Position numbers and translations under genes: made by a program. A DNA stretch of 45,338 nt from Ilumatobacteraceae bacterium (lineage in GTDB: Bacteria; Actinomycetota; Acidimicrobiia; Acidimicrobiales; Ilumatobacteraceae): positions 6,967 through 52,304 of the forward strand of contig JAEMQQ010000007.1 in the NCBI GenBank assembly GCA_016463775.1, written 5' to 3'. Below are positions 3,876-43,802 of this stretch, one piece after another; position 1 is the first letter of the stretch; the number at the start of each line of letters is the position of its first letter. The notes under the pieces are model-generated. The model ran no database searches, was not told where the DNA came from, and saw only the letters and a list, made by a program, of their open reading frames with translations.

Positions 3876-4472
3876 CTACGACAATTTGTTGCTGAGTAGT
3901 CGCAAAAATTCGCTGCGGGTCGGCTCGTGCTCGAATGCACCGCAAAATGCCGACGTGGTGGTCAGCGAGTTCTGCTTTTCGACACCGCGCATCATCATGC
4001 ACAGGTGTTTTGCCTCGATAACGACGGCAACCCCCAACGGGCTGAGTGCCTCCTGAAACGCGTCTCGAATCTGGGTGGTCAACCGCTCCTGTACCTGCAG
4101 GCGGCGTGAACAAATATCAACTACCCGCGCCACCTTCGACAGGCCAGTGATGTAACCATTCGGAATATATGCAACGTGCGCCTTGCCAAAGAACGGAATC
4201 AAGTGATGTTCGCACAGGCTGTACATCTCGACATCTTTGACGATGACCATCTCCTGCACCTTTTCGGCAAAGATTGCATCACGAATGATCTCTACCGGGT
4301 CGTGGCCCTGGCCTTGGGTAAGAAATTGCATCGCTTTGGCGACCCGTTCCGGGGTCTTGAGCAGCCCCTCGCGGTCGGGGTCTTCACCAATGAGCCCCAA
4401 TACGTCTTTGTACGCCTTTGCCAAGTGGTGGGTGGTGGCCTCATCGTAGGTTTCGACTTTTTTGTAGGCCAC
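3876..4472 (-). CDS. folE: GTP cyclohydrolase I
   Basis: A 198-residue enzyme converting GTP to 7,8-dihydroneopterin triphosphate, the first step of folate and biopterin synthesis. The zinc ligands are visible as SLCEHH (Cys87, His90) and HLCMMMRG (Cys158). The N-terminal [13 protein letters not shown] and the [10 protein letters not shown] segment are typical of the family. It is the last gene of the order SDR - PTPS-like - folE, nine bases after the PTPS-like stop. No folB, folK or folP accompanies it, so it may serve tetrahydrobiopterin-type pterin synthesis as well as, or instead of, folate. ATG start. Confidence 0.96.
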
Positions 4473-4481
4473 GGCAGTCCT

Positions 4482-4925
4482 TTAAGCGTGATGCACGATG
4501 TCGGCGGGGTACTGCACGATGTTGCGCGGTGTCTCACCCAAGACCACGTGCAAATCGAGATTCGCCGGCACATGCGGCCGTAACAGGCCGTGCACGACGA
4601 TTGCAATGTTTTCTGCGGTTGGGTTGACGTCGGCAAATTCGGGTACGTCAAGATTGAGGTTCTTGTGGTCGAGGCGATCAAGCACGTGTTGCTTGATGGT
4701 CGCCGATAGCACACCAAGATCTATGACGTAACCAATTTGTGGATCGACTGAACCACAGACCCGCACGGTGAGTTCGTAGTTGTGCCCGTGGTAGTTCGGG
4801 TTGTTGCACTTGCCGTAGATGCGGGCGTTATCAGCATCACTCAGCGCCGGGTTATGAATGCGATGCGCCGCATTGAAGTGTTCGTGTCGGTACACCGCCA
4901 CACGTGGGGCGCTTGAGCCGGCCAT
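4482..4925 (-). CDS. 6-pyruvoyl-tetrahydropterin synthase / 6-carboxytetrahydropterin synthase family
   Basis: A 147-residue T-fold enzyme. Zinc ligands His21 (FNAAHRI), His46 and His48 (YHGHNY), catalytic Cys40 in GKCNNPNYHGHNY, catalytic Asp/His in RLDHKNLN (85-86) and the pterin-anchoring Glu in GETPRN. The CNNPNxHGHNY form is common among eukaryote-like PTPS enzymes, while QueD makes a queuosine precursor from the same substrate. Neighbouring folE and an SDR favour the biopterin route; no queC or queE is nearby. It lies between these two genes in one transcription unit. Either PTPS or QueD activity remains possible. Confidence 0.88.
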   Translation of the reverse strand: MAGSSAPRVAVYRHEHFNAAHRIHNPALSDADNARIYGKCNNPNYHGHNYELTVRVCGSVDPQIGYVIDLGVLSATIKQHVLDRLDHKNLNLDVPEFADVNPTAENIAIVVHGLLRPHVPANLDLHVVLGETPRNIVQYPADIVHHA

Positions 4926-4956
4926 ATCTGATGGTCAGGCTACGAGACGGGTGTGA

Positions 4957-5721
4957 CTAAGCGACGATCTCCACGCCACCGCCTGGGTGCTCGATGATCC
5001 AACGTCGCAATGCAGTGACGGCCGCTGGCGCGGGCATGGCCAACACCCATCCGGCGCGGGCGTCGTGTTTTCCCTCGGCAATGGCAACAATGAGTGAAGC
5101 AACGTCGTTTGGTTGCAGGGTGGACGACAAGCCGTTGACCGGTTCGATTCCGTCGGGCATCAACGAGCGGTGCAAGGGCGTGTCGACCACACCAGGGGCG
5201 ACCGTGAAGGCCCGCACGCCGTGCGCCTCACCCTCGGCATTGGCCACCACGGTGAGCAGATGCACAGCCGACTTTGCCGATGCATAGGCAAAAAAACCAG
5301 GGAACGGGTCAAGCTGGGCGAGCGACGACATGTTGACGATTCGCGCGTCGCCGTGCCGGCACATCGTTGGCCACAACGTATGAATGGCGGTGGCCGGTGC
5401 CGCCACATTGAGGTCGTGCATCGCCCGAAATTCAGCAGGTGTGGTTTCGGCAATCGACATAACTTTGGCGCTGCCAGCGTTGTTGACCAACAAGTCGATG
5501 CGACCGTGGGTGTCGGCAATCTGGTGAAGCACGGCGCCGAACACGGAAGTGTCGGTGACATCGCACGGGAATGGTTCAAACCGCTCGCCGAGGGCTCGAC
5601 CCAAAGCGGAGAGCTTGTCGGAATTGCGGGCAATCCCTACCACCGTGTGACCAGCCTTCACCAGCAACTTGGCAACTGCTGCACCGATGCCGCTTGATGC
5701 ACCTGTTACAACGGCAATCAC
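4957..5721 (-). CDS. Short-chain dehydrogenase/reductase, candidate sepiapterin-reductase-like
   Basis: A 254-residue classical SDR: TGASSGIG (6-13), NNAG (80-83), catalytic Ser133, Tyr146 and Lys150 (YASAK). The family reduces or oxidises carbonyl/hydroxyl groups with NAD(P)H. It is the promoter-proximal gene in front of the PTPS-like protein and folE, 31 bp apart, which is the position and class of enzyme needed to reduce 6-pyruvoyl-tetrahydropterin to tetrahydrobiopterin; that assignment is inference from context. ATG 5721-5719; divergent from the aldolase gene with a 35-bp gap. The sequence alone would only support a generic SDR. Confidence 0.9.
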   Translation of the reverse strand: MIAVVTGASSGIGAAVAKLLVKAGHTVVGIARNSDKLSALGRALGERFEPFPCDVTDTSVFGAVLHQIADTHGRIDLLVNNAGSAKVMSIAETTPAEFRAMHDLNVAAPATAIHTLWPTMCRHGDARIVNMSSLAQLDPFPGFFAYASAKSAVHLLTVVANAEGEAHGVRAFTVAPGVVDTPLHRSLMPDGIEPVNGLSSTLQPNDVASLIVAIAEGKHDARAGWVLAMPAPAAVTALRRWIIEHPGGGVEIVA

Positions 5722-14539: not shown

Positions 14540-15574
14540 ATGAACATCGGCGTGCTCACCGGCGGTGGGGACTGCCCGGGTCTCAACGCCGTGATTCGCG
14601 CCATCGTACGCAAGGCACAAAGTGTCGGCGGCCATCGCGTGCTCGGCTTTTATGACTCGTGGGACGGTGTGCTGGAAAAGCGATACGAAGAACTCGATAT
14701 CAGCAAAGTGCGCGGCATCTTGCCCAAAGGGGGCACGATTTTGGGCACGCGGCGCGGCAGCCCGATTGATTACCCCGATGGTGCACAGCGCACCAAGCAG
14801 GTGTTTGTGGATCTTGGCCTCGATGCGTTGGTGGTCATCGGTGGCAATGGTTCGTTGACCGTCGCATCGATGTTGGCCAACGACCATGGGTTGCCCATTG
14901 TCGGCGTGCCCAAAACGATCGACAACGACGTGGTCGGCACCGACGCAACGTTCGGATTTCAAACTGCGGTGCAGATTGCCACTGATGCAATTGACCGTCT
15001 GCACACCACCGCAGAAAGCCACGACCGGGTGATGGTCATCGAAGTGATGGGCCGCGATGCCGGCTGGATTGCTCTGCATGCGGGTATTGCTGGTGGCGCC
15101 ACCGCCATCTTGGTGCCCGAGGTGCCATTCGACATCAAAGAAGTTGCGGCAATCGTTGCCAAGCGCCACGAACGTGGTCGCTATGCGTCGCTCGTCGTGG
15201 TGGCCGAAGGTGCCAAACCCAAGCCCGGCACGCTCGAGGTGCCCGAACCACAACTCGATAAGTACGGTCGTGAGTTGCACGGCAGCATCAGCCAGGTAAT
15301 CGCCCCCGAGTTGTCACGACTCACAGGTTTCGAGTCGCGTGTGGTGCAGTTGGGCCATGTGCAGCGCGGGGGTACGCCCACGGCCTATGACCGTGTGCTG
15401 TCAACCCGATTCGGCTTGGCGGCGGTGGATGCCGTGTATGCCAAAGCATTTGGTGACATGGTCGTGTTGCGCTGCGGGCGCATCGAGCGAGTGTCGATGC
15501 AGGTGACGCGTGGCCAGACCCGCACCATTGACCTCGACTTGTTCAACGACGTCGCAGCAACGTTTTTTGGCTGA
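14540..15574 (+). CDS. 6-phosphofructokinase, group III-like (predicted ATP-dependent)
   Basis: A 344-residue glycolytic enzyme phosphorylating fructose 6-phosphate. Seen: LTGGGDCPGLNAVIR, GTRRGSP, GGNGS (101-105), PKTIDND (124-130, catalytic Asp128), EVMGRDAGW, and the late GHVQRGGTP. Gly104 is the ATP-type residue (PPi enzymes carry Asp), while Lys125 of PKTIDND is the residue common to PPi enzymes and to group III ATP enzymes of actinobacteria. Asn103 where Asp or Glu is more usual is a minor oddity. No PPi-type GGDD motif. Confidence 0.95.
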   Translation: MNIGVLTGGGDCPGLNAVIRAIVRKAQSVGGHRVLGFYDSWDGVLEKRYEELDISKVRGILPKGGTILGTRRGSPIDYPDGAQRTKQVFVDLGLDALVVIGGNGSLTVASMLANDHGLPIVGVPKTIDNDVVGTDATFGFQTAVQIATDAIDRLHTTAESHDRVMVIEVMGRDAGWIALHAGIAGGATAILVPEVPFDIKEVAAIVAKRHERGRYASLVVVAEGAKPKPGTLEVPEPQLDKYGRELHGSISQVIAPELSRLTGFESRVVQLGHVQRGGTPTAYDRVLSTRFGLAAVDAVYAKAFGDMVVLRCGRIERVSMQVTRGQTRTIDLDLFNDVAATFFG

Positions 15575-15584
15575 CCCAGCCAAG

Positions 15585-15636
15585 CTGTGTTTCTAGTTCG
15601 GCTCCCCGAACTGTGTTTCTAGTTCGGTGGCCCGAA
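15585..15636. repeat. Two 26-bp tandem units forming paired hairpins at the 3' end of upp
   Basis: Unit 15585-15610 and unit 15611-15636 differ at three central positions. Each holds AGTTCGG-(4 nt)-CCGAACT, giving hairpins at 15595-15612 and 15621-15638. The second unit contains the last codons and TAG of upp; the first is an extra copy lying downstream. The pair sits between the convergent phosphofructokinase and upp genes and probably ends transcription in both directions. Confidence 0.8.
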
Positions 15637-16254
15637 CTGTCGATCGCCGGCGTCGCCGAGGCCCGGCACGATGAAGGCTCGTTCGTTCAAGTGGCTGTCA
15701 ATCGATGCCGTGATGATGTGCAGGTCCATGCCGGTTGATTCGAGAAATTTGATGCCCTCGGGGGCAGCCAGCACGCACGCCACAAAAATGGTGCCGCTCG
15801 CCCCGCGGTCGACCAAAATTTTGCAACCGTGGGCGAGTGAGCCACCGGTGGCAAGCATCGGGTCGAGCACCACGCAGGTGCGGCCACTCAGATTGGCGGG
15901 CAACTTGGCAACGTACTCGCTTGGTGCGTGTGTCTCTTCGTCGCGCTGCACGCCCACGACGGCAATATCGGCATCCGGCAGCAACTCCATCGCGGCAGGC
16001 AACATGCCGAGACCGGCACGCAAGATTGGCACCAGCACCGGGCGACTGGCGAGCTGCACACCAGTGGTGGTGGCCAGTGGTGTGGTTACTTGGCGCGGCG
16101 TGGTGGGAATGCGTCGTGTTGCCTCGGCCACGACCACGAGCGACAACCTGCGCATTTCGGCCCGGAAGATTTGGTTGGTGGTGGTCTGGTCGCGCAGATT
16201 GGTGAGTGCCTCCTGGGCGACGGGGTGGTCGACGACGGTGACCTGCAGGGGCAT
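15619..16254 (-). CDS. upp: Uracil phosphoribosyltransferase
   Basis: A 211-residue salvage enzyme making UMP from uracil and PRPP. The N-terminal LQVTVVDHPVAQEALTNLRD and RRIPTTPRQVTTPL segments, the VPILRAGLGM motif, and the PRPP loop LDPMLATGGS are diagnostic. ATG 16254 is preferred over a TTG six codons earlier because family alignment starts there. Divergent from the GNAT gene with a 30-bp gap. The stop codon lies inside the second unit of the 26-bp tandem repeat. Confidence 0.95.
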   Translation of the reverse strand: MPLQVTVVDHPVAQEALTNLRDQTTTNQIFRAEMRRLSLVVVAEATRRIPTTPRQVTTPLATTTGVQLASRPVLVPILRAGLGMLPAAMELLPDADIAVVGVQRDEETHAPSEYVAKLPANLSGRTCVVLDPMLATGGSLAHGCKILVDRGASGTIFVACVLAAPEGIKFLESTGMDLHIITASIDSHLNERAFIVPGLGDAGDRQFGPPN

Positions 16255-16284
16255 GGCTACATACTTACGCAATCATGTGTGGTG

Positions 16285-17001
16285 ATGCGAACTAGCGTTT
16301 TGCCCGTGCGAATCACCACGGCGCAGAGTCGCGGCGAATGTGAGCAGGCCGGGGCATTGTTCGACCGTGTCTGGGCGATGCGGGGCATGGTGCCCAGCGA
16401 AGTGATCATCGCCACCGTGCATGCCGGTGGCTACGCGTCGCTGGCCTGGCTCGGTGATCAGGTGGTCGGGGCGAGTTGGGGCTTTCTCGGTGCTCACCAC
16501 GACGAGCACACATTGCACTCGCATGTCACGGGTGTTGTTGCCGACCACAATTCATGTGGCATCGGCGAAGCACTGAAGCAGCACCAATGGTTGTGGGCCT
16601 ACGAGCGGGGGATAGCCGCCATCACCTGGAGTTTCGACCCGCTGGTGCGGCGCAACGCGTATTTCAACCTGGTGAAACTCGGCGCACGCGTCACCGACTA
16701 TCACGAAGATTTCTATGGCTCGATCGATGATGGCCTCAATCAAGGTGAACACACCGACAGATTGTTGGTGCGCTGGGCGGTGGCCGGCTGCGACGGGGTG
16801 GCGCCAGTGGGAAAACACGTTGCGCAGGCAGAGTGGAGCATCACGACACCAGCCGACATCGAAGCCCTGCGCCGCAACGATCGGGCCGCAGCAGCGCAGT
16901 GGCGCATTGCCCAACGGGCAGACTTACGCCGCATGTTCGCCAGCAACCAAACCATCGCCGGCGTGATGAGCGACGGGTCGTATGCGGTGGTGTCGGCATG
17001 A
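16285..17001 (+). CDS. GNAT-family acyltransferase
   Basis: A protein of about 238 residues similar to the predicted GNAT group that accompanies OSBS/NSAR genes. GNAT-like elements: LAWLGDQVVGASWGFLGAHHD, HVTGVVADHNSCGIGEALKQHQ (the acyl-CoA loop of motif A) and ITWSFDPLVRRNAYFNLVKLGARV, the W-x-F-D-P-L motif of this branch. It would move an acyl group, possibly succinyl, from CoA to an amine. ATG 16285 or GTG 16306 may be the start. Its TGA overlaps the following gene's ATG (ATGA), so the products probably act in one pathway. Confidence 0.85.
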   Translation: MRTSVLPVRITTAQSRGECEQAGALFDRVWAMRGMVPSEVIIATVHAGGYASLAWLGDQVVGASWGFLGAHHDEHTLHSHVTGVVADHNSCGIGEALKQHQWLWAYERGIAAITWSFDPLVRRNAYFNLVKLGARVTDYHEDFYGSIDDGLNQGEHTDRLLVRWAVAGCDGVAPVGKHVAQAEWSITTPADIEALRRNDRAAAAQWRIAQRADLRRMFASNQTIAGVMSDGSYAVVSA

Positions 17002-18101
17002 TTTCGAGCATTCGGCTGCGGCGCGCGCACATCGACCTCGTGTCGCCGTTTCGCACCAGCTTTGGGGTCGAGACTGCTCGTGACTTGCTCTATATAGAGG
17101 TGTCGGGTGACGGCGTCATTGGCTGGGGTGAATGTGTGGCCATGAGCGAGCCGATGTATTCAAGTGAGTATGTCGACGGGTGCGAAGAAGTGTTGCGTCG
17201 GTACATGTTGCCGTTGGTGCACCGCAACACCACCGCCGAGTCGTTCACCGATTCGGTGCGTGGCATTCGTGGGCACTACATGGCCAAAGCGGTACTCGAG
17301 ACTGCCTTGCTTGATTTCCAGTTGCGTCGCAACGGCATGAGCCTTGGCACGTTTCTTGGTGCCACCCAAACCCGCGTGCGTTCGGGTGTGTCGGTGGGCA
17401 TTCAACCAAGCATCGACGAATTGTTGAGCGTCGTGCAGGGCTATATCGACGATGGTTACCTGCGCATCAAACTAAAAATCAAGCCCGGCTTTGATCTCGA
17501 ACCAGTGCGGGCCGTACGCACGACCTTCGGAGACGATCTGTTGCTACAGGTGGATGCCAATTCTGCATACCAGCTCAGTGATGCCGAGCATCTGGCCAAG
17601 TTGGATCAATTCAACCTCCTGCTCATCGAGCAACCATTGCCCGAAGAGCAAGTGGCATCGCACGCCCAATTGGCCAAGGTGGTGCGCACACCGATGTGTT
17701 TGGATGAGTCGATTCTTTCGGTTGAAGTTGCCCGCGAGGCGCTCGATAGCGGTGCGTGCAGCATCATCAACATCAAGCCTGGCCGAGTGGGCGGTTATCT
17801 CGAGGCAAAAAAGATTCATGACCTGTGCTTTGAGCGCGGCGTAGCGGTGTGGTGCGGGGGAATGTTGGAGACCGGCATCGGCCGTGCCGCCAACTTGGCC
17901 CTTGCGGCGTTGCCCGGGTTCACCCTGCCTGGTGACACGTCGGCATCAGCCAGATATTTCGCTCGTGACGTTACGTCGCCGTTCATATTGCGCGATGGGC
18001 ACTTGGATGTGCCGACGGGCCCAGGCATCGGTATCGACCCTGATCTGGACTACCTCGACTCGATCACCGACCGTGTGGATGAAATCGTCTTGACGAAATA
18101 G
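16998..18101 (+). CDS. o-Succinylbenzoate synthase / N-succinylamino acid racemase (enolase superfamily)
   Basis: A 367-residue member of the MenC/NSAR group. Catalytic Lys-x-Lys in RIKLKIKPG (158-160), metal ligands Asp186 (QVDANSAY), Glu211 (IEQPLP) and Asp236 (CLDES), and the second catalytic Lys260 (NIKPGR), then GGMLETGIGRA. OSBS forms o-succinylbenzoate for menaquinone; NSAR racemises N-succinyl amino acids, and many members do both. The upstream overlapping GNAT gene favours an amino-acid racemase role; no other men genes are here. Stops inside a long hairpin. Confidence 0.92.
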   Translation: MISSIRLRRAHIDLVSPFRTSFGVETARDLLYIEVSGDGVIGWGECVAMSEPMYSSEYVDGCEEVLRRYMLPLVHRNTTAESFTDSVRGIRGHYMAKAVLETALLDFQLRRNGMSLGTFLGATQTRVRSGVSVGIQPSIDELLSVVQGYIDDGYLRIKLKIKPGFDLEPVRAVRTTFGDDLLLQVDANSAYQLSDAEHLAKLDQFNLLLIEQPLPEEQVASHAQLAKVVRTPMCLDESILSVEVAREALDSGACSIINIKPGRVGGYLEAKKIHDLCFERGVAVWCGGMLETGIGRAANLALAALPGFTLPGDTSASARYFARDVTSPFILRDGHLDVPTGPGIGIDPDLDYLDSITDRVDEIVLTK

Positions 18102-18147
18102 TGCAACGGGGCTGACAGCATCGACGGTGTCAGCGGGGCATTGCACT
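18100..18147. terminator. Nested inverted repeat, bidirectional terminator
   Basis: AGTGCAA (18100-18106) pairs with TTGCACT (18141-18147) and, inside, GCTGACA (18111-18117) pairs with TGTCAGC (18128-18134). The outer arms include the stop codons of both convergent genes (TAG 18099-18101 on plus, TAG 18148-18146 on minus). Confidence 0.75.
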
Positions 18148-18556
18148 ACGCCGTGAGGCGGAACAGAATTGCAGTCTCGGCTTGGTGTTGGTTGTTCCTG
18201 CGAAGTTTGCCCCACAGGCTGGAGATGTTCCAATAGATGCTGAACATGGCATAGACAGGCCCATATTTTTTCGCGATGGCCTTGCGCACGGCGAGGGCTT
18301 CGCTGCCGGTCACGAGTCGAGCAGTGCCGGCCAGCAACGGTGTTTCGGTGGTGACCGAACCTTTGATGTCACAGACCTGCAGGTTGACGGTTGGGTTGTT
18401 GCGGATTCGTTTGACCTTGCCGACGTTGGTCTCGGTGATGACGCCGAATTCGTCGTTCATTGCCGCAAACCACACGGCAGTGGCGACCGGTCGCCCATCA
18501 CGACGGAACGTCACGAGCGACACGTACTTTTCTTTGTTGCTGAGCGCCGCAGTCAT
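18146..18556 (-). CDS. PPOX-class F420/flavin-dependent oxidoreductase (pyridoxamine-phosphate-oxidase fold)
   Basis: A 136-residue split-barrel protein. Its pattern KYVSLVTFRRDGRPVATAVWF, then ITETNVGKVKRIRNNPTVNLQVCD and KGSV, is that of the actinobacterial PPOX class F420-dependent enzymes (Rv2061-like). It probably binds reduced F420 or a flavin; the substrate is unknown. ATG 18556 lies only 7 bases beyond the 3' end of tRNA-Pro, and no ribosome site fits between them, so the mRNA released by tRNA processing would be almost leaderless. Confidence 0.85.
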   Translation of the reverse strand: MTAALSNKEKYVSLVTFRRDGRPVATAVWFAAMNDEFGVITETNVGKVKRIRNNPTVNLQVCDIKGSVTTETPLLAGTARLVTGSEALAVRKAIAKKYGPVYAMFSIYWNISSLWGKLRRNNQHQAETAILFRLTA

Positions 18557-18563
18557 GTTGTTG

Positions 18564-18638
18564 TCGGGATGGCAGGATTTGAACCTGCGACCTCCTGGTC
18601 CCAAACCAGGCGCACTAGCCAAGCTGTGCTACATCCCG
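18564..18638 (-). tRNA. tRNA-Pro (anticodon UGG)
   Basis: On the minus strand: acceptor CGGGATG with CATCCCG, anticodon arm CCTGG-TTTGGGA-CCAGG with anticodon TGG, T arm GCAGG-TTCAAAT-CCTGC, discriminator A. CCA is not encoded (CAA follows). It lies 7 bases after the class V aminotransferase stop and 7 bases before the PPOX start, on the same strand as both. Confidence 0.96.
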
Positions 18639-18645
18639 CGTGCTG

Positions 18646-19809
18646 TCAGGCTAGTGACCGAACAACCGAGAGCAGTCGCTGCACATCATCGTGGGTCACA
18701 TAGCGCACCACACCAGCACGAACGACACCACCCGACTCCGTCAGCCCCAGATGCGACACCAGTTCGACGGCATAGGAGCTGCCCGACCACACGGCGATTT
18801 TTTCGGCAGCCAACGACTCTGCAACGCGATCCGGCGAGAGACCAGCAACGGTGAATGCCACCGTCGGTGTTCGCGCATCGAGCGTGGGTGGGCCCCACAC
18901 CCGCACGTGTGGCATGGCGAGCAGACCATTGAGTAGCGGCGTAAACACGCCCAACTCGTAGTCCGCAACTCTCGTCATATCTTCTTCGAGCAGGTACCGG
19001 GCAGCAGCTTCGGTTGCGGCGATGCTTTCAAAGTTGGGTGTCCCGGTTTCGTATCGTCGGGGCCCGACATCGTCGGCGGGTCGCACTTTGGCAACCGGCA
19101 AGGCGTTGAGCAGATTCGGTTCGATGCACAACACGCCGGCATGTGGTCCGTACCACTTGTACGGGCTGGTGGCGAGCACGTCACAACCAATCGCGCGCAC
19201 GCTCACGGGCATGTGTGGTGCAAGATGCACGGCGTCGACGAACACCCGCGCACCCACCTGGTGAGCGAGTGCAACGACGGCCCGCAGATCGGGCATCGTG
19301 CCGATGAGGTTCGATGCACCGGTGACTGCCACCCATTTGGTGTTCGGGGTAATGAGCGCTGCGAGTGCATCCATATCCAATCGACCGTCAACGGCGGAAA
19401 ACGGTGCGAGCACGTGCTCGGCCCCCGACTCTTCACATGCGATGCGCCACGGTGACACGTTGGCATCATGATCCAGGCGTGTACCAACCACGCGATCACC
19501 AGGTCTGAGTGTGCGACCGATCGCTCGCGTCAATGCGAATGTCAACGTCGTCATATTCGCCCCGAACACCACGCTCAGGGGGTCGGTATCAAGCAGTTGC
19601 GCCACCACACCACGGGCGCGCTCAAGTAGATCGTCCGTGGCGTTGGCGGCGGCGAAGGCGCCATGTGTGTTGGCATTGTTGCCTCCCGTTGACCACTCGC
19701 TCGCTGCTCGAATTGCGACATCCACCATCTGCGTGCCAGCCGGGCCGTCAAAACGGGCCCAGCCGTCGCGCACCCCTGGAAAGCGGTGGCGCACGTCGGC
19801 GCCGATCAT
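18646..19809 (-). CDS. Cysteine-desulfurase-like class V aminotransferase
   Basis: A 387-residue PLP enzyme of the cysteine desulfurase-like (VC1184) subgroup. The start VRHRFPGVRDGWARFDGPAGTQ, the cofactor-contacting RLDHDAN, Asp192 in FVDAVH and PLP-lysine 218 in SPYKWYGPHAG are seen. The family includes desulfurases, selenocysteine lyases and enzymes of unknown substrate; an obvious active-site Cys loop is not clear. ATG 19809 overlaps the TGA of the upstream SH3-like gene (ATGA). tRNA-Pro follows 7 bases downstream. No suf or isc gene is nearby. Confidence 0.88.
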   Translation of the reverse strand: MIGADVRHRFPGVRDGWARFDGPAGTQMVDVAIRAASEWSTGGNNANTHGAFAAANATDDLLERARGVVAQLLDTDPLSVVFGANMTTLTFALTRAIGRTLRPGDRVVGTRLDHDANVSPWRIACEESGAEHVLAPFSAVDGRLDMDALAALITPNTKWVAVTGASNLIGTMPDLRAVVALAHQVGARVFVDAVHLAPHMPVSVRAIGCDVLATSPYKWYGPHAGVLCIEPNLLNALPVAKVRPADDVGPRRYETGTPNFESIAATEAAARYLLEEDMTRVADYELGVFTPLLNGLLAMPHVRVWGPPTLDARTPTVAFTVAGLSPDRVAESLAAEKIAVWSGSSYAVELVSHLGLTESGGVVRAGVVRYVTHDDVQRLLSVVRSLA

Positions 19810-42620: not shown

Positions 42621-43802
42621 ATGCGCCACGACGTTGTCATCGTCGGCGCGGGGCCTGCCGGCTTGTCGCTGGCCCATGGGCTGGTGTCGCGTGGTGTGGA
42701 CACGCTGGTGGTGGCACCGAATGGCGCCTGGCATGCCACGTACGGTGCCTGGCGAGACGATGTCGCAACGTGCGAGTTGGGGGCCCCACTAGACGCACTG
42801 GTGCGCGGAGCGTGGTCGACCGTGCGCGTCGTTGGCCGCCGTGAACATCGTTTGGCGCGACCGTATGTCGTGTTCGACAACGAGCTGCTTCGTGCAAGTT
42901 TGGGTGCTGGTGTCAGCGTGCTCGACGACACGGTAACGAGTGTGCAGCACGACATCGACACCTCGAGTGTGCGCCTGGGTAGTGGTGCCGAGATACGGGC
43001 ACGACTCGTGGTTGATGCGACTGGCAACGGGTCGCTCCTCGCTCGACGTGGCGTACCAGCAGGTGCCCAGACGGCCTACGGTCTCGTCGTGACCGATGCG
43101 CCCGACGACGTACCGCGGCGGGCCAAGGTGCAGCCCGATGTTTTCACGCTGATGGATTGGGGCACACCTCCCACGTTCTTGTATGCCGCCCGGTTCACCG
43201 ATGGTCGGGTGCTTGTTGAAGAAACATCGTTGTACGCTGACCCGCCGCACGACATCGACGACCTGCGCGCACGGCTAACGCAGCGACTCGGCGTTGACGC
43301 CACGACCACTGCCGACCGTATTGAACGAGTCAATATTCCGATGGGGGCACCGTTGCCGGTGCTCACGACACGCGTCGTGGGGTTCGGTGCTGCGGCCGGC
43401 TACACCCACCCGGTCACGGGCTACTCGGTCGCAGCGTCGCTTCGCGCAACGCCACGTATGGCTGACGTCGTTTGCCAAAATATCGCCCAAGCAAGGAGCG
43501 GTTCTGAATTGTCGCTCGCCGTGTGGGCTGCAGTATGGCCTGCTGCGTACGTGCGCACCCGCGGCTGGCACCAGATGGGTTTGTCGGTGTTGCAGTCATT
43601 GCCGCCCGAGTCGATCGGTGAATTCTTCGATGCATTCTTCGGCCTGCCACCCGAACAATGGGCCGCCTACCTGCGCATCGACAGCGAACCGGCAGTCGTT
43701 CGCCGGGCAATGCTCGGTGTGTTTCGTAACGTCAGCAACGGTGTGCGCCTCAGGTTGATGTCGTCGCCTGGCGCGCTGCTGCGAGCACTCGGCGCACGAT
43801 AA
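42621..43802 (+). CDS. Lycopene cyclase (CrtL/CrtY type, FAD-binding)
   Basis: A 393-residue flavoprotein that closes beta rings on lycopene. The FAD motif VIVGAGPAGLSLA starts the protein; diagnostic motifs are TYGAWRDD, VVDATGNG, QTAYGLVV, FTDGRVLVEETSL, NIPMGAPLP and GFGAAAGYTHPVTGYSVAASLR. It is the single-chain cyclase type, not the CrtYc/CrtYd pair of many other actinobacteria. No other carotenoid gene is in the window. Its last 53 bases overlap the end of the convergent SURF1 gene. Confidence 0.9.
   Translation: MRHDVVIVGAGPAGLSLAHGLVSRGVDTLVVAPNGAWHATYGAWRDDVATCELGAPLDALVRGAWSTVRVVGRREHRLARPYVVFDNELLRASLGAGVSVLDDTVTSVQHDIDTSSVRLGSGAEIRARLVVDATGNGSLLARRGVPAGAQTAYGLVVTDAPDDVPRRAKVQPDVFTLMDWGTPPTFLYAARFTDGRVLVEETSLYADPPHDIDDLRARLTQRLGVDATTTADRIERVNIPMGAPLPVLTTRVVGFGAAAGYTHPVTGYSVAASLRATPRMADVVCQNIAQARSGSELSLAVWAAVWPAAYVRTRGWHQMGLSVLQSLPPESIGEFFDAFFGLPPEQWAAYLRIDSEPAVVRRAMLGVFRNVSNGVRLRLMSSPGALLRALGAR

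Follow-up and report, generated by a model that had tools for sequence, protein, structure and literature searches.

We identified, in a genome of the Ilumatobacteraceae, a conserved two-gene unit in which a GNAT-family acyltransferase gene overlaps the gene for an enolase-superfamily enzyme of the NSAR/OSBS type. In the reading that we favor with some confidence, the unit would encode a bifunctional NSAR/OSBS enzyme together with its acyltransferase and would serve menaquinone synthesis as well as D-amino acid conversion. The evidence comes from the locus itself, from the menaquinone genes of the same genome, and from the occurrence of the pair in relatives, in named actinobacteria and on plasmids.

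A GNAT gene and a menC homologue form a two-gene unit

The unit lies on the forward strand of the window, that is, the whole 45,338-nucleotide stretch of DNA that was analyzed (Table 1). Because it is bounded by a divergent uracil phosphoribosyltransferase gene and a convergent gene for an F420-dependent oxidoreductase, it consists of the GNAT gene and the menC homologue. The initial annotation had noted that the stop codon of the former and the ATG of the latter overlap, which we confirmed, and the overlap suggests that translation of the two genes may be coupled. The start codon of the GNAT gene is uncertain, with an alternative GTG possible at position 16306, and a scan of window positions 15500 to 19000 returned no sigma-70-type promoter. 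It was likewise correct that no men gene lies close: a tblastn search with the seven other Men proteins of the same genome found none within the window, and a weak MenE-like ligase match (67 bits; locus L072) fell in the part of the contig that precedes it.

Table 1. Features of the GNAT-menC locus and its boundaries (window coordinates)
Feature	Position	Strand	Basis
GNAT-family acyltransferase gene (P0001, 238 aa)	16285..17001	+	ORF, AlphaFold2 GNAT fold, Acetyltransf_1 matches of the family
NSAR/OSBS-type enolase-superfamily gene (P0002, menC homologue, 367 aa)	16998..18101	+	TIGR01928, alignment with 1sja, conserved residues
ATGA shared by the GNAT stop codon and the menC start codon	16998..17001	+	Sequence
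Uracil phosphoribosyltransferase gene, divergent, outside the unit (boundary)	15619..16272	-	upp, 223.7 bits; PRK00129, 247.3 bits
PPOX-class F420-dependent oxidoreductase gene, convergent, outside the unit (boundary)	18146..18559	-	TIGR03666, 115.7 bits

Taken alone, the first protein (P0001) matched no Pfam or NCBIfam model at an E value of ≤0.1, and Acetyltransf_1 was matched by 12 of 26 members of its family at the same threshold (best E value, 5e-10). An AlphaFold2 model of P0001 (pLDDT of 94.4) gave 701 Foldseek matches to structures at an E value of ≤0.001, and the best 50 of these were to GNATs, with the best TM-scores at about 0.85 by target length. In our GNAT alignment (A1), G94 is invariant and belongs to a GxG loop that we take to be the acyl-CoA binding loop. 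P0001 is, by its modeled fold and this loop, a GNAT-family acyltransferase, and we propose that it acts as an N-acyl (succinyl) transferase for D-amino acids.

The second protein belongs to the NSAR/OSBS type

The product of the second gene (P0002) resembles MenC in scoring above the cut-off of the NCBIfam menC model TIGR01928 (303.8 bits against 200.65) and in being the only OSBS found alongside a complete men pathway. It differs from MenC in lying outside the men cluster, in being coupled to a GNAT gene and in reaching only 59.6 bits against NF002782, the dedicated actinobacterial MenC model (cut-off, 288). Its nearest solved relative is the NSAR/OSBS enzyme of Amycolatopsis (1sja and variants; 456.5 bits), identical at 205 of 357 aligned positions (57%), followed by the N-acylamino acid racemases 2ggj/1r0m (313.7 bits) and 2zc8 (296.1 bits). 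Dipeptide epimerase and muconate entries first appeared at about 95 to 100 bits, and P0002 was ruled out as a dipeptide epimerase or muconate cycloisomerase on these scores. Judged by its closest characterized sequence, P0002 thus falls into the NSAR/OSBS subfamily, as the initial annotation had suspected. Enzymes of this type are already known, and kinetics of several are tabulated in PMC8142540.

The catalytic residues of P0002 (K158, K160, D186, E211, D236, K260 and R263, or KKDEDKR) are all conserved. They include the two Lys residues, the three metal ligands and an Arg at the third position past the second Lys, a pattern that does not discriminate between uses of the enzyme; K160, K260 and R263 correspond to K163, K263 and R266 of the Amycolatopsis enzyme. 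The Arg is presumably a feature of NSAR/OSBS enzymes. It is kept in 41 of 42 aligned enzymes, including those without a linked GNAT, and R263 is therefore uninformative on racemase use in vivo, so that we rejected the KxxR arginine as a marker of such use.

P0002 is almost certainly the OSBS of its own genome

The initial annotation had proposed that the pair serves D-amino acid conversion rather than menaquinone synthesis, and the second half of this proposal fails here. The genome (G000; 94% complete, 80 contigs, 1.6 Mb) holds the other genes of the classical o-succinylbenzoate menaquinone pathway: menD lies on contig C56 with the genes for MenG/UbiE, MenF, MenH, MenA and MenE around it, and menB lies on contig C62 (432.5 bits, above the cut-off). 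MenF, MenD, MenB, MenA and MenG each pass the cut-off of a model; MenH (193.8 of 208.55 bits) and MenE (198.8 of 345 bits) fall below their equivalog cut-offs, and their naming rests partly on their place in the C56 cluster.

We searched a set of 61 genomes, made up of this one and members of its genus, family and order, for the alternative route. MqnA (PF02621) was found in none of the 61, with 4 of 14 controls positive, and the futalosine route was ruled out for this genome on the absence of MqnA. Searches of the same genome for a second OSBS, with P0002 and with NF002782 as queries, each found only P0002, and the NF002782 cut-off was reached in a single genome of the 61. Hence neither the separate menC nor the futalosine pathway that the initial annotation had suggested looking for was found by these queries. 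The single-OSBS state recurs in G003, G004 and G012, the other three members of the genus that are at least 90% complete. Since the full set of other men genes is present and neither MqnA nor another OSBS was found, the gene content makes P0002 almost certainly the OSBS of its genome. The initial annotation had held that a complete men pathway with this enzyme as the only OSBS, joined to a lack of racemase activity, would speak against its view; the first half of that statement describes what we found. OSBS enzymes dehydrate SHCHC to o-succinylbenzoate, and P0002 would supply this step to the menaquinone genes on C56 and C62.

Distance from the men genes was rejected as a sign of NSAR use. We fetched the menC regions of 20 relatives in which no GNAT was detected, and the men cluster lies clearly beside menC in only two of them; in two genomes beyond these 20 (G056 and G059), menC and menD are separated by no more than about 5 kb. 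The lack of a nearby men gene is therefore not diagnostic.

The GNAT-menC pair is conserved in relatives and in named actinobacteria

Homologues of P0001 occur in 31 of the 61 genomes and homologues of P0002 in 58. The two genes lie at most 400 bp apart on one strand in 28 of the 31 GNAT-bearing genomes (GNAT first in 22, menC first in 6), an adjacency that is beyond chance. The suspected pairing of a GNAT with an NSAR-type gene is thus conserved and, with the ATGA overlap in the window, gives the linkage looked for in a D- to L-amino acid pathway. The remaining three genomes (G015, G019 and G053) have the two genes on different contigs; in G015, the GNAT gene is truncated at the end of its contig. 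Of the 21 GNAT-first pairs of relatives, 11 show the same 4-base overlap, with starts chosen by script. In G002 (L013), the GNAT gene beside menC is split into two frames, through either assembly error or decay.

For named genomes we took the best 80 GNAT loci from at least 589 confirmed relatives; these loci are not independent, several coming from the same genera. menC lies within 600 bp of the GNAT gene in 50 of the 80, and 26 of these 50 close pairs show the 4-base overlap. In a further 13 loci, menC lies up to about 3.1 kb away on the same strand, and in one it is on the other strand; in 16, menC was absent from the fetched DNA. Two records titled as Bifidobacterium breve MAGs (L099 and L105) carry a pair about as similar to that of the window as the pairs of other actinobacterial MAGs are, and their label looks doubtful.

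Most sampled isolates have a second route to menaquinone

From the best 80 loci we chose 28 actinobacterial isolates. A dedicated MenC scored above the cut-off in 24 of them (two of the 24 matches contain an in-frame TGA) and MqnA was present in two of the other four, so that a separate menC or futalosine gene is present in 26 of the 28, which supports a role of the GNAT-linked enzyme as an N-acyl amino acid racemase. In 18 isolates a menC lies downstream of the GNAT gene on the same strand; 15 of these have a dedicated MenC and one, a Streptomyces (L139, identical to G079), has MqnA. Neither was found in Actinomadura rupiterrae (L124) and Planotetraspora phitsanulokensis (L154), where the GNAT-linked copy may also be the OSBS. 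We read the GNAT-linked copy as needless as an OSBS in most of the sampled isolates and as required in that capacity in the genome of the window. A racemase role for the GNAT-linked enzyme probably exists.

The pair also occurs on plasmids beyond the actinobacteria

The GNAT family is present in 44 plasmid records. We opened eight plasmid regions from four phyla, seven picked from GNAT matches and one (Streptomyces) from menC matches: two from Deinococcus and one each from Streptomyces, Arthrobacter, Sulfitobacter, Pseudosulfitobacter, Priestia and Lysinibacillus. In all eight, the annotated GNAT and menC genes adjoin or lie at most about 0.9 kb apart, and the seven GNATs compared with the profile of alignment A1 (all except that of Pseudosulfitobacter) match it. 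M20 peptidase genes accompany the pair in Streptomyces and Lysinibacillus and lie at a distance of about 3.4 kb in Arthrobacter, an amidohydrolase gene accompanies it in Priestia, and transporter genes do so in both Deinococcus plasmids, Sulfitobacter, Pseudosulfitobacter and Lysinibacillus. Such neighbors are the setting to be expected of N-acyl amino acid metabolism. For the plasmid pairs L216, L219, L220 and L222, genes close by encode M20 enzymes, an amidohydrolase or serine hydrolases. The enzyme is labeled menC in all eight records, and Sulfitobacter is not known to make menaquinone; labels of this kind on GNAT-linked copies, including the plasmid-borne ones of Alphaproteobacteria, may mislead on the pathway.

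A desuccinylase would have to be encoded elsewhere

A pathway of Geobacillus kaustophilus, attributed to Sakai and co-workers (2006), reportedly combines a GNAT N-succinyltransferase, an NSAR/OSBS enzyme and a desuccinylase to convert D- to L-amino acids. The window resembles this reported pathway in having a GNAT acyltransferase gene beside that of an NSAR/OSBS enzyme and differs from it in that the genome has no linked M20 gene. The initial annotation had advised looking for an M20-type desuccinylase elsewhere in the genome; four M20 genes, which are at most candidates for this role, are present (amidohydrolases on contigs C1 and C38, a hydantoinase/allantoate type on C13 and a carboxypeptidase G2-like gene on C54), all unlinked to the pair, with none of the four on the window's contig.

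The C54 gene is the nearest of the four to the M20 genes that stand in operons with the pair, which are 43 to 52% identical to it. The C54-type copies of the family nevertheless form a clade of their own apart from the operonic M20s (support, 100/100). Within the family, loss of the GNAT and loss of the C54-type M20 showed no association, the latter being present in 23 of 28 genomes with the GNAT versus 8 of 9 without it by a hand count. Among the best 80 named loci, a C54-type M20 lies within 300 bp of the GNAT gene in 17 (13 on the same strand, 4 divergent) and was not in the fetched DNA for 60, and in G037, of the same order, the GNAT, menC and M20 genes are contiguous. The Lysinibacillus plasmid shows an M20-GNAT-menC arrangement, a further likeness to the pathway reported from Geobacillus. 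The operonic M20s that we found in actinobacteria are of the carboxypeptidase G2-like C54 type, including those of the Streptomyces and Arthrobacter plasmids (47 to 51% identity), whereas the Lysinibacillus M20 and the Priestia amidohydrolase, one of each having been compared, are nearer to the C1 amidohydrolase (24 to 25% identity).

Proposed function and alternative explanations

In the bifunctional scheme, the GNAT would transfer an acyl group from acyl-CoA to a D-amino acid to give an N-succinyl (or other N-acyl) amino acid, and P0002, besides its OSBS reaction, would racemize this product. An L-specific M20 deacylase encoded elsewhere could then free the L-amino acid and so pull the equilibrium; this third step is possible for the genome of the window and is the weakest of the scheme. 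A literature search returned little on a GNAT/NSAR pathway.

A simpler account, which we regard as possible and appreciably less probable, is that P0002 acts in vivo only as the OSBS (MenC), with NSAR activity at most promiscuous and with the GNAT as a hitchhiker or an enzyme of an unrelated substrate. It would fit a men pathway that is complete with P0002 as the only OSBS found and the lack of a linked desuccinylase gene, as well as the family genomes without a detected GNAT (9 of 37), seven of which keep a menC homologue. Selection points the same way: against seven relatives of the same genus, dN/dS was 0.04 to 0.08 for menC and 0.11 to 0.21 for the GNAT gene, rough values given that dS is high in most comparisons, exceeding 0.8 in six of the seven for the GNAT gene (an eighth comparison, outside the genus, was saturated). 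The GNAT gene itself is, by these rough estimates, under purifying selection. Against the account stand the retention of the pair at GNAT identities as low as 33% within the family and its presence in four phyla, including isolates in which a futalosine gene or dedicated menC is also present.

That P0002 acts solely as an N-acyl amino acid racemase, with o-succinylbenzoate supplied by another enzyme or with the menaquinone pathway dead, would agree with the GNAT pairing and with the dedicated MenC of most sampled isolates (including the two matches with an in-frame TGA); we hold it to be quite improbable in a genome where two queries revealed no other OSBS-like gene and all other men genes were found, and where three further genus members show the same state. 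Equally hard to credit is acylation by the GNAT of a lysine of a menaquinone enzyme or other protein, with a regulatory pairing, for although o-succinylbenzoyl-CoA synthetase is reported to be acetylated in Bacillus subtilis (PMC11619455) and the top Foldseek matches of P0001, among the best 50 of 701, are protein N-terminal acetyltransferases, their ranking among GNATs mirrors fold and not substrate, and the pair lies beside transporter genes in Alphaproteobacteria and occurs in the Streptomyces with a futalosine gene.

Returning to the bifunctional scheme, we are evenly balanced on a further proposal: a catabolic GNAT-linked racemase may have become the sole OSBS in this lineage, which the closest named loci place near the Ilumatobacteraceae. 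One bifunctional enzyme, coupled in translation to its acyltransferase, would then serve both menaquinone synthesis and D-amino acid salvage in a 1.6-Mb genome, and Actinobacteria and Bacillota may have recruited the deacylase from different M20 subfamilies. In contrast, a separate enzyme for each of these tasks is retained by most of the actinobacterial isolates sampled. Genome context would in this way separate the two functions of the NSAR/OSBS family, with a second route in most isolates and one OSBS found here, and the lineage of the window would offer a natural case for how selection on both reactions holds a bifunctional enzyme.

Other genes of the window

Three further observations concern the window outside the unit. 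An ORF that is open at the left window edge (positions 1 to 613) encodes a repetitive Ala/Met/Pro-rich protein with repeats like ALPAEAMTTMKPAQLGAM. On the reverse strand, positions 3876 to 5721 hold in series genes for GTP cyclohydrolase I (FolE), a 6-pyruvoyltetrahydropterin synthase-like protein and an SDR; the row could be a tetrahydrobiopterin-type pterin pathway, the synthase model being below its cut-off. Finally, a lycopene cyclase family gene on the forward strand (42621 to 43802; TIGR01790, 241.6 bits, above the cut-off of 209.5) suggests carotenoid or retinal synthesis.
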